From: Prosthecobacter sp.
Lineage (GTDB): Bacteria; Verrucomicrobiota; Verrucomicrobiia; Verrucomicrobiales; Verrucomicrobiaceae
Direction: 5' to 3'
NCBI RefSeq assembly: GCF_029946185.1
Contig: NZ_JAQSEA010000048.1
Span: forward strand, 1 to 64,000
Length of the DNA stretch: 64,000 nt
In this document: piece by piece, positions 34,720-37,517 of the stretch
How positions within the stretch are numbered: position 1 is the first letter of the stretch
Layout of the letters: each line of letters opens with the position of its first letter
Notes under the pieces: model-generated
What the model was told of the DNA's origin: nothing
Database searches by the model: none
The model's input: only the letters and a program-made list of their open reading frames with translations
Program-made: the position numbers and the translations under genes

Positions 34720-34744
34720 TTCAATGTTCAATGTTCAATGTTCA
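34720..34744. repeat. TTCAATG heptamer tandem repeat
   Basis: Three and a half copies of the 7-base unit TTCAATG occupy the gap between the TrkA-C protein gene start and the stop of the MORN-like lipoprotein gene, overlapping that stop codon. Similar 7-base repeats of another sequence (ATTCGTC) occur in other gene gaps of this window. Confidence 0.8.
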
Positions 34745-35122
34745 CAAGTGCTTCTCGCTGATGGATTTGTCATGGTCGTAAATCTGCTCCTTCGTCTGCT
34801 TACCTTTCATGTTCCAGTAGCGGTTCAGACCGTGGCGCTGGCCGTGGTCAAAGTTGGTTTCAGCGGACTGCTGGCCGTTCTCCCACCACTCCTTCATCAC
34901 CCCCTGCATCTTGCCGTTTTGATACGGATACTCGCCCGCCACCTTGCCGTTCGAGTGCTTGTTACGGATGAGGCCCGTGTACGGCTTGCCCTGGTAGTTC
35001 GCCTCTTTGAAGTCATTCAGCATCTCGACGTCCTTATCCGCGAAATCGACTTCGGCAGGCTGCTTTTCTCCACAGGAGGTTATACAGAGGGCGCAGAGCA
35101 GGAAGGTGAGGAACTGTTTCAT
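34742..35122 (-). CDS. Small lipoprotein with MORN-like (YwqK-type) repeats
   Basis: Predicted lipoprotein of 126 residues. The signal peptide (FLTFLLCALCITSC) ends in a lipobox with Cys at about residue 17. The mature part has MORN-like or YwqK-type repeats, each with a YxNG/WxxNG core: RNKHSNGKVAGEYPYQNGK, then MKEWWENGQQSAE and LNRYWNMKGKQ. Such proteins are often labelled 'toxin-antitoxin system YwqK family antitoxin', but no toxin is adjacent and that name says little about role. The ATG at 35122 is used; a GTG two codons earlier is possible. It follows the monoheme-protein gene in the same direction, 47 bp away. Confidence 0.7.
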   Translation of the reverse strand: MKQFLTFLLCALCITSCGEKQPAEVDFADKDVEMLNDFKEANYQGKPYTGLIRNKHSNGKVAGEYPYQNGKMQGVMKEWWENGQQSAETNFDHGQRHGLNRYWNMKGKQTKEQIYDHDKSISEKHL

Positions 35123-35169
35123 CCACACACGTTGGAGATGGAGCGCAGGTTTTCAACCCACAGCACGCC

Positions 35170-36561
35170 TCACTTCACCGCCAGCGCCTTCTTCCACTCC
35201 GCCGGTGCTCCAGGCAGCGTTTCGGCAAGGATGCGGCGGATGTGCCCGCGCTCAGTTTCACTAAGGTAGCCGTATTCGCCGGTGGTGTCCTTGCCTTCAA
35301 GAACCGTCCAGAGTCGCGTGAAAACGGTTTGCTTCAGTGGGGCGGCAAGGTGCTGGAAGGTGAGGGAATAGACCATGTAGCTGCAGCGGTACTTGAAGAT
35401 GCGGCGTAGAAGCTGGAAGTCCTTCAGGCTGCGTCCATCGCTGCTTTGCGGGGCGCGTTTGGTGAAGGCATTCTGGAAGGCGGGATCTCCCTCAATGCCG
35501 CCGTCAGGCAGTTCGGCTTCGTCTTTGAAGAGCAGGGCTTCGACGACGTCCTCCGCGCAGTGGTCGATGATGCGGCGCGCGGTGCCAACGGGTTCGCTCT
35601 GGACGGTTTCGCCAAGTTCACGCTGGAGGCTTGTCTGCATGTGCATGGCTCGCAGGGAGGACTGATTCGCCTTGGTGAGGACATTCTGCAACGAGGTCTG
35701 ATGCTCCAGCACCATGAGGGCGACGATGTCGCTCTGCTGGCGCGGGAAGGGGGAGACATCGAAAAATTTGGCGAGATTGGTGACGTTTGCACCGGCGTTG
35801 AAGTCGATGTCGATGCTCTGATCGTTTTTCTCGGTGGCGGTCACGTTGCCACGGTGCAGGACATTGCCGTGTTTGCCGGTGACGTACCACCCGCCCCAGC
35901 GGTCGCTGAACGGCGTCGTGGTATCGACGACCGTGCTGCCCTGGCTCGTGATGGGGTGGCCCTCGGGGCCGGGATAGACCGAGCGCACGATGACGCCGGG
36001 CACTTCGGGGGTGAACGGGCCGCCATGGCAGCTCAGGCAACTGTTGTCGCGCTGGAAGTGCAGGGGCTTGGCGGGTTCCTCATAGGGGTCGAGCAGGTAA
36101 AAGATGGGCCCGAGTTTCGGATCGATGGTGGCAACCTCGATCGAGCCGCCGAGGCAGTAGCCGACGTAAGCGTTGTCACCGAAATAGACCACACGTGGAG
36201 TCTGCGGGTTGATGAGGTCATTCTGCTTGCTGGTCTTGGAGAAGACCATGACTTGCGACTCCTGCGGGATGTCGAGCTGCTTCATCACATCCCTCAACAC
36301 GGTCCAGGCATCCGTGCGGTCGATTTTCACCTTCCCGGCGGCCAGGAGGCGTTCGAGACGCTGGGTGGCATCGTTGGGTTCGGTGTCAGAGTAGTGGATG
36401 GGAGCGTTTTCGTAGGCGTCCTCGGCATAAAGTGGGAGGAGGAAGCATGCCGAAATCAAACTGAGGAATGCCGAATGAATGACCAAGCACAGAAGGGAGA
36501 TCGCAGAGTGCGGCGTTGATGAGTTCAAATGTGGAGAGTCCATGACTGGAAAATTCGTCAT
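35170..36561 (-). CDS. Exported monoheme c-type protein of unknown function, next to nsrR
   Basis: Protein of up to 463 residues with a hydrophobic export signal (about 20-46) and a single c-type heme motif, CLSCH at 175-179. Conserved-looking blocks are QVMVFSKTSKQNDLINPQ, RVVYFGDNAYVGYCLGGS, DRWGGWYVTGKHG and YLSETERGHIRRIL. I recall similar proteins in Planctomycetes and other bacteria as uncharacterised cytochromes; no enzyme family is assigned. ATGs at 36561 and 36543 are both possible; the first lies inside an ATTCGTC repeat. It is the second gene after nsrR, 10 bp away, so it is likely NO-controlled and may detoxify or sense NO or nitrite (inference). Confidence 0.75.
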   Translation of the reverse strand: MTNFPVMDSPHLNSSTPHSAISLLCLVIHSAFLSLISACFLLPLYAEDAYENAPIHYSDTEPNDATQRLERLLAAGKVKIDRTDAWTVLRDVMKQLDIPQESQVMVFSKTSKQNDLINPQTPRVVYFGDNAYVGYCLGGSIEVATIDPKLGPIFYLLDPYEEPAKPLHFQRDNSCLSCHGGPFTPEVPGVIVRSVYPGPEGHPITSQGSTVVDTTTPFSDRWGGWYVTGKHGNVLHRGNVTATEKNDQSIDIDFNAGANVTNLAKFFDVSPFPRQQSDIVALMVLEHQTSLQNVLTKANQSSLRAMHMQTSLQRELGETVQSEPVGTARRIIDHCAEDVVEALLFKDEAELPDGGIEGDPAFQNAFTKRAPQSSDGRSLKDFQLLRRIFKYRCSYMVYSLTFQHLAAPLKQTVFTRLWTVLEGKDTTGEYGYLSETERGHIRRILAETLPGAPAEWKKALAVK

Positions 36562-36564
36562 TCG
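36553..36564. repeat. ATTCGTC heptamer repeat (short)
   Basis: ATTCGTCATTCG lies between the nsrR stop and the body of the monoheme-protein gene, followed by another TTCGTCAT at 36568. It covers one candidate start codon of that gene, which weakens the case for the start at 36561. The same unit occurs at 39721-39738 and, in both orientations, at 7339-7362 and 7424-7435. Confidence 0.6.
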
Positions 36565-36571
36565 GGTTTCG

Positions 36572-37012
36572 TCATGGCTGCTTCAGCAGCCGCTGCTTCA
36601 TCGCTGTCCCTTCGTTACCGGCCACAAGGTCGCGCAGCGTCTGGCGGTCGAGGGTTTCGTAAAAAGCGTTCACAGCCTGCGCGAGCGCACCTTTGAGGCG
36701 GCAGGAACCATTGATGGGGCAGGTGTTGTGCTGTGCGTCGAAGCACTCGACTATGAAGGGCGTGTCCTCCGTGCGCCTCACCACCATGCCGATGCGGATG
36801 TCCTCCGGCTTCATCCCCAGCACGATGCCGCCACCCCGGCCACGGCGGGTTTCGAGGTACCCGAGCTTGGCCAGGTAGTTCACCACCTTCACCAGATGGT
36901 GCCTCGAGATGTCGTAGGCGGCAGCGACTTCGCTGAGCGAAAACATTTCCGCTTTCAGCGCAGCAAACATGAGCACGCGCAGGGAGTAATCGGTGAAGAG
37001 GCTGAGTCGCAT
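36572..37012 (-). CDS. nsrR: Rrf2-family transcription regulator, NsrR-like
   Basis: DNA-binding regulator of 146 residues. The N-terminal winged helix (MRLSLFTDYSLRVLMFAALK) and recognition region (YDISRHHLVKVVNYLAKLGY) match NsrR. Three cysteines, Cys90, Cys98 and Cys104 (NTCPINGSCRL), have the spacing of NsrR cluster ligands, so it probably holds an iron-sulfur cluster that reacts with nitric oxide and releases repression. ATG at 37012. A 29-bp palindrome at 37037-37065 lies 25 bp upstream and is a likely operator, so it is probably autoregulated. It leads an operon with the monoheme gene 10 bp downstream. Confidence 0.88.
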   Translation of the reverse strand: MRLSLFTDYSLRVLMFAALKAEMFSLSEVAAAYDISRHHLVKVVNYLAKLGYLETRRGRGGGIVLGMKPEDIRIGMVVRRTEDTPFIVECFDAQHNTCPINGSCRLKGALAQAVNAFYETLDRQTLRDLVAGNEGTAMKQRLLKQP

Positions 37013-37036
37013 GCCTCATTTTACGGGAATAGGGGG

Positions 37037-37065
37037 TTAAACTTGCATTTTCCGTGCATGTTTAA
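37037..37065 (-). promoter_or_regulatory. Probable NsrR/Rrf2 operator palindrome
   Basis: TTAAACTTGCA and TGCATGTTTAA form an inverted repeat with 7 bases between the arms; 10 of 11 positions pair. The TGCA cores within AT-rich arms recall NsrR and Rrf2 operators (half-site like AAGATGCATTT). It ends 25 bp upstream of the nsrR start codon, where a repressor would block its promoter. Binding is inferred. Confidence 0.7.
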
Positions 37066-37120: not shown

Positions 37121-37149
37121 AAAAAAGCCCGGAGACGCGTCTCCAGGCT
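37121..37149 (-). terminator. Rho-independent terminator of the cysteine-rich lipoprotein gene
   Basis: AGCC-GGAGAC (37126-37136) pairs with GTCTCC-GGCT (37139-37149), leaving one mismatch and a two-base loop. It is preceded on the plus strand by six A, which is a T tract at the 3' end of the minus-strand transcript. It lies 25 bp past the stop at 37174. Confidence 0.85.
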
Positions 37150-37173
37150 TCGATATTGTCAGAGCAGCAAGAA

Positions 37174-37374
37174 TTAATGCTTGGTCTTGCAGGCAGCGGC
37201 GCCGGGTTTGGCGCAGCAGGCACCGGCGGCGGGTTTATCGCAGCAGGCACCGGCGGCGGGTTTGGCGCAGCAGGCAGAATCCTTTTTCTTGCCGAAGATG
37301 CACTGGCCGTTGGAGGCGCAGTTGCTCAGCAGGAGGCTGGTGGAGACGAGGGCAAGAGTGAGAATCAATTTCAT
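37174..37374 (-). CDS. Small cysteine-rich lipoprotein with CCxKPAAGA repeats
   Basis: Lipoprotein of 66 residues. The signal peptide (LILTLALVSTSLLLSNC) ends in a lipobox cysteine at residue 19. The mature part contains ACCAKPAAGACCDKPAAG and ACCAKPGAAAC, three copies of a nine-residue unit with paired cysteines, and ends KTKH. Nine cysteines in under 50 residues suggest metal binding (for example Cu or Zn) or disulfide cross-linking at the envelope; neither is proven. It is a single-gene unit with its own terminator, upstream of nsrR. The unit repeats at DNA level as 27 bp. Confidence 0.7.
   Translation of the reverse strand: MKLILTLALVSTSLLLSNCASNGQCIFGKKKDSACCAKPAAGACCDKPAAGACCAKPGAAACKTKH
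37213..37276. repeat. 27-bp coding tandem repeat in the cysteine-rich lipoprotein gene
   Basis: Two full copies (37213-37239, 37240-37266) and a partial third of a 27-bp unit beginning GCAGCAGGCACCGGCGGCGG, with a diverged copy before them at 37193-37212. Full copies differ only at the end (ATC or GGC). Near-identity points to recent expansion or repeat-number variation. Confidence 0.8.
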
Positions 37375-37517
37375 GATGAGGTTGTATTGGTGTCTGGAGG
37401 TCGGCAGAGGTCGGATGCCCCATGCACAACAGTCAGAGTAGGATTAAAGCGTTTTATTTCAGAGAATCTCAAGAAAAAATGCGGCTGCGTGAGGTTTGCG
37501 GGCTTTGAAACTGGCAT

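Follow-up and report, generated by a model that had tools for sequence, protein, structure and literature searches.

A predicted NsrR-type nitric oxide regulon in Verrucomicrobiota whose control operon encodes an uncharacterized exported monoheme protein

A two-gene unit in the stretch of Prosthecobacter DNA that we analyzed (64,000 nucleotides, here called the window) is best explained as the autoregulated control operon of an NsrR-type nitric oxide (NO) regulon, a reading to which we assign, taken as a whole, a probability of about 0.8. NO-type regulation of the unit is well supported by sequence comparison, since a conserved operator, a conserved gene pair, and a second target made up of NO genes all point to it. 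Those three elements come from comparison of genomes; NO sensing, repression, the periplasmic role, and the chemistry are inferred. The same three lines of evidence lend strong support to the preliminary description of this DNA, which had proposed an NsrR-type, NO-responsive operon with an operator in its promoter. Both genes lie on the minus strand, with nsrR followed after a 10-bp gap by the open reading frame (ORF) of the heme protein:

36572..37012, minus strand: nsrR, Rrf2-family repressor, 146 aa, with Asp8 and Cys90/98/104 (Pfam, NCBIfam, PDB, orthologue alignment)
35170..36561, minus strand: exported monoheme c-type protein, 463 aa, of no known family (ORF, CxxCH, relatives, AlphaFold model)
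36025..36039, minus strand: CLSCH heme c attachment motif, residues 175 to 179 (CxxCH in all relatives listed)
37037..37065, no strand assigned: predicted NsrR-type operator, TTAAACTTGCA-N7-TGCATGTTTAA (inverted repeat, conservation, genome scan)
37018..37023, minus strand: candidate −10 element TAAAAT, 5 nt before the nsrR ATG (read from the sequence)
37125..37150, minus strand: inverted repeat AAGCCCGGAGACG/CGTCTCCAGGCTT, then TTTTTT; candidate terminator of the upstream gene
34742..35128, minus strand: small lipoprotein with MORN-like repeats, 41 bp downstream of the heme gene (weak MORN_2 match)

The earlier claims about this layout agree with what was found. The heme gene had been placed 10 bp downstream of nsrR, as the ORF positions confirm; its product had been called an exported single-heme protein, and it begins with a signal-like sequence and contains a single CxxCH. 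The NsrR-type cysteines listed at positions 90, 98, and 104 are all present, together with Asp8, and the 11-bp palindrome described at the promoter pairs at 10 of 11 positions, as stated, and is conserved upstream of nsrR orthologues.

The operator is 29 bp long and starts 24 bp upstream of the nsrR ATG. Its geometry is that of NsrR sites (TGCA-N7-TGCA), and such ~23-bp palindromes lie at both the repressor's own promoter and the target promoter. Shuffling the window 100 times produced no match to the operator consensus, and the site at 37037 to 37065 is the only perfect match in its genome. Among nsrR orthologues the site lies ~50 bp before the ATG. An alignment of 17 of their promoters concentrates the information in the half-sites, at 1.91 and 1.93 bits per base, compared with 0.69 in the central 7 bp and 0.63 and 1.04 in the flanks. 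The low information in the center agrees with the structure of Streptomyces coelicolor NsrR (ScNsrR) on hmpA1 DNA, in which the central 7 bp are without base-specific contacts (PMC9338935), and the overall pattern agrees with the published NsrR motif, gATGyAT-N5-ATrCATc (PMC1274295). A divergent form of the operator, ATTGTTGCAT...GTACATCTTT, occurs in other families.

Two relatives that have lost the repressor are informative. In genome G004 (locus L005), no nsrR lies beside the heme gene or was found elsewhere in the genome, the site ahead of the heme gene has degenerated, and the operator at the truncated haemoglobin gene glb3 is kept. G014 has lost most of nsrR and retains an intact operator. 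Both the decayed and the intact site fit a site that is maintained for this repressor. The G014 case (L098, 1300 to 1540) is a natural internal deletion that leaves the operator and the first codons of nsrR before the heme gene, in a genome that also lacks nnrS.

The operator would cover the −35 region of nsrR. TAA(A) is kept at the candidate −10 position in the 17 orthologue promoters, and a scan for consensus sigma-70 promoters found none. Given that TAAAAT lies 5 nt before the ATG, it is possible that the transcript is leaderless. The inverted repeat at 37125 to 37150, which is absent from the list returned by a terminator scan, is probably the terminator of the upstream gene and would isolate the nsrR unit. 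At the other end, the gene for the MORN-like lipoprotein adjoins the heme gene in several near relatives and, in close relatives, may be cotranscribed with the pair as a third gene.

The extent of the regulon was examined by searching 37 related genomes for the operator pattern, allowing up to 2 mismatches, with the reversed pattern as a control. Thirty matches were recovered, of which 12 were at nsrR-heme units, 12 at the glb3 locus, and 6 elsewhere; considering that the reversed control gave 7, the last 6 are at chance level. Two further matches in the Prosthecobacter genome, each with 2 mismatches, lie near acetolactate synthase (L085) and within the gene for a membrane protein (L087); as they are within control levels and not conserved in relatives, they were put down to chance, and a match in G014 (contig C20; L110) was rejected likewise. 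The genome scan for the palindrome that the preliminary description had put forward thus yields a second copy, before glb3-nirK-sco1-nnrS. The gene order at this second locus is glb3-nirK (with cytochrome c)-FGE/SCO1-nnrS, and a gene for an exported truncated haemoglobin lies beside it in divergent orientation. In all, the operator precedes glb3-(nirK-sco1)-nnrS in 12 genomes. The gene nnrS directly follows glb3 in most relatives (it is 12 kb away in G008), the divergent exported haemoglobin is found in most of the genomes with the locus, and most relatives with the second operator have no nirK there. In proteobacteria, NsrR has been reported to control both nnrS and nirK (Rodionov 2005, PMC1274295).

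Neither a PF00042 (flavohaemoglobin-type) globin nor Hcp was found in the Prosthecobacter genome, and none of its three COX1-family proteins appears NO-reductase-like (one seems to be an aa3-type and two cbb3-like oxidases, judged from sequences and neighbors); as the genome is ~96% complete, these absences are provisional. An earlier claim that the system contains no known NO-detoxifying enzyme is therefore valid for the operon and fails for the regulon, where the second operator precedes truncated haemoglobin, NirK, and NnrS genes and a second, exported truncated haemoglobin is divergent. Two details of the second locus may be added. The operator there (G000:C279:56315-56339, where G000 is this genome; L120, 4316 to 4340) overlaps the glb3 start codon, which suggests direct steric repression, and between nirK and nnrS (L120, 1014 to 2312) a SCO1/SenC domain is fused to an FGE-sulfatase-like domain.

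Conservation of the gene pair, the comparison proposed earlier, is borne out across several families. Among 74 heme-protein loci with enough upstream sequence to be assessed, nsrR lies directly upstream in 34 and does not in 40; in three of the latter (L033, L037, and L056), the heme gene is preceded by an operator-like site. Almost all NsrR orthologues in the 37 nearest genomes adjoin a heme gene, and this extends to further families of the order (G027, G029, and G036). Within the genus, each of the 12 genomes that have a close NsrR orthologue also has nnrS and a heme gene next to nsrR; of the other 12 genomes, 5 have nnrS. An Rrf2 neighbor also occurs in a planctomycete (Pirellulales contig; L081, 5252 to 7838), where a protoglobin gene, a heme-family gene, and an Rrf2 gene stand side by side with the heme gene in the middle. 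No paper on NsrR in Verrucomicrobiota that concerns this pair came up in literature searches.

The identity of the repressor deserves closer scrutiny. It belongs to the Rrf2 winged-helix family (Pfam PF02082; E = 3e-32 over 129 positions), and its best PDB match is S. coelicolor NsrR (5n07; E = 7e-23), in which each of the three cysteines has its counterpart. Asp8, Cys90, Cys98, and Cys104 are invariant in 20 diverse orthologues, relatives being 49 to 88% identical to the repressor; Asp8 and three Cys are the ligands of the ScNsrR cluster (PMC5411485). The best NCBIfam equivalog is NsrR (NF008240), at 123.4 bits against a cut-off of 182, so the protein is NsrR-type and outside the range of that model, under which it is not filed. 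The RirA model (NF008886) scores 116.8 bits against a cut-off of 193. A score below the NsrR cut-off and only 7 bits above RirA counts against the NsrR reading, as does the spacing of the cysteines (C-x7-C-x5-C), whose first interval is longer than in S. coelicolor NsrR. Since NsrR and RirA, the rhizobial iron regulator, are close Rrf2 relatives with the same fold and a similar Cys region, the regulator might instead sense iron or Fe-S/redox state in the manner of RirA/IscR, with the heme protein in an iron-linked response. We consider this very unlikely, because the operator is built like an NsrR site, NsrR is the closest relative of solved structure, and the only second conserved target is the globin/nirK/nnrS locus; unlike in RirA systems, there are no iron genes, whether for iron uptake or suf/isc, at the conserved sites.

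Under the NsrR reading, the repressor would presumably carry a [4Fe-4S] cluster on Cys90/98/104 and Asp8 and bind both the palindrome over its own promoter and the second copy before glb3-(nirK-sco1)-nnrS, beside the divergent exported truncated haemoglobin gene. Destruction of the cluster by NO would release both units, after which the cytoplasmic and exported globins and NnrS could keep the damage done by NO in check. In some genomes the second unit includes NirK, which itself produces NO. As for the exported monoheme protein, which would share a transcript with the repressor, its most likely site of action is the periplasm, where it would either bind NO or nitrite or act on them as a heme enzyme.

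What the monoheme protein does is a matter of weaker evidence. It has hundreds of relatives in genome contigs, with the CxxCH present in every one listed, and its family was found in 18 of 241 genomes sampled in the phylum; no relative was found in plasmid records or by sequence searches of Pfam, NCBIfam, and PDB. A PDB profile search with the protein gave no match, and 41 family members had no Pfam cytochrome match. Cytochrome c′ and cytochrome P460 are periplasmic NO-binding cytochromes, exported and with a single c-type heme. The monoheme protein resembles them in these features and in its plausible NO link; unlike them, it is 463 aa long with a fold not found in PDB, and neither by sequence domain nor by solved fold does it belong to these or other known c-type cytochrome families (Cytochrom_C, DUF3365, and others). 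Its AlphaFold model is confident (pLDDT of 93 and pTM of 0.88), and Foldseek found no fold match in PDB (best E = 0.11), although a small shared heme-binding subdomain could escape such a search, and the model contains no heme; the top rows, with TM of about 0.1, were discarded as noise. Approximately 42 residues are near-invariant across orthologues and paralogues, including the CxxCH, R221, W225, H287, and Q288, and this points to an active site more than to simple electron transfer; R193, H236, and C393 are conserved chiefly in orthologues. A paralogue in the same genome (G000:C161:18494-19699; L092) has 33% identity and a CMNCH motif, with no nsrR beside it and no NO-related neighbor. The NO link therefore applies to the nsrR-linked subfamily, and considering also that about half of the loci lack an Rrf2 neighbor, the family as a whole is not tied to NO alone.

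Handling of NO or nitrite is our best guess for this protein, and a plausible one. The preliminary description had likewise suggested that it could be a new NO- or nitrite-handling factor; the idea remains plausible, but neither sequence nor fold yields a relative that would indicate a particular chemistry, and the paralogue stands without nsrR. It is conceivable, if rather doubtful, that it represents a new class of periplasmic NO- or nitrite-transforming enzyme, with a fold unseen in PDB, which replaces flavohaemoglobin and NO reductase in bacteria without both. A role confined to electron transfer or maturation for periplasmic nitrite reduction by NirK, with no NO or nitrite enzymology of its own, would suit the single CxxCH, the exported N-terminus, and the presence in the regulon of a NirK with a fused cytochrome c. 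However, most relatives with the second operator keep the heme protein and have no nirK at that locus, the protein is far larger than carrier cytochromes and has no cytochrome c domain match, and the near-invariant residues extend across paralogues, all of which makes this role rather improbable. Paralogues and many distant relatives without nsrR and the operator, as well as mixed neighbors (e.g., a cbb3 oxidase in L051 and TPR-like proteins), could also point to general respiratory or stress work, such as redox sensing or peroxide, with the nsrR linkage a lineage-specific recruitment. The occurrence of the pair in several families (G027, G029, and G036) and the planctomycete heme gene between protoglobin and Rrf2 genes speak against such a recruitment, which seems to us a fairly unlikely account.

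The regulon as reconstructed resembles those of proteobacteria and Streptomyces (PMC1274295, PMC9338935) in its Rrf2 repressor with three Cys and Asp8, TGCA-N7-TGCA operator, predicted self-control, and nnrS and nirK targets. It differs in its Verrucomicrobiota host, in truncated haemoglobins that replace Hmp, and in an nsrR that heads a transcript with an uncharacterized exported monoheme protein. Comparative evidence thus extends the NsrR regulon, so far mainly one of Proteobacteria and Gram-positives, to Verrucomicrobiota, and gives an undescribed heme-protein family with hundreds of members an NO context. It also makes testable how bacteria with NirK and no recognized Hmp, Hcp, or NO reductase survive their own NO.

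Two further observations concern the surroundings of these genes. At two heme loci without nsrR (L059, 4934 to 5944; L051, 4956 to 5882), AraC-type regulators with a PocR sensory domain, assigned by Pfam for L059 and by resemblance for L051, lie directly upstream of the heme gene and are a possible alternative means of its control. Just upstream of the nsrR unit in the window (37175 to 37376, minus strand) is a small lipoprotein-like ORF with repeated Cys-Cys motifs (CCAKPAAGACCDKPAAGACC), and similar genes occupy the same position in relatives L005 and L006.
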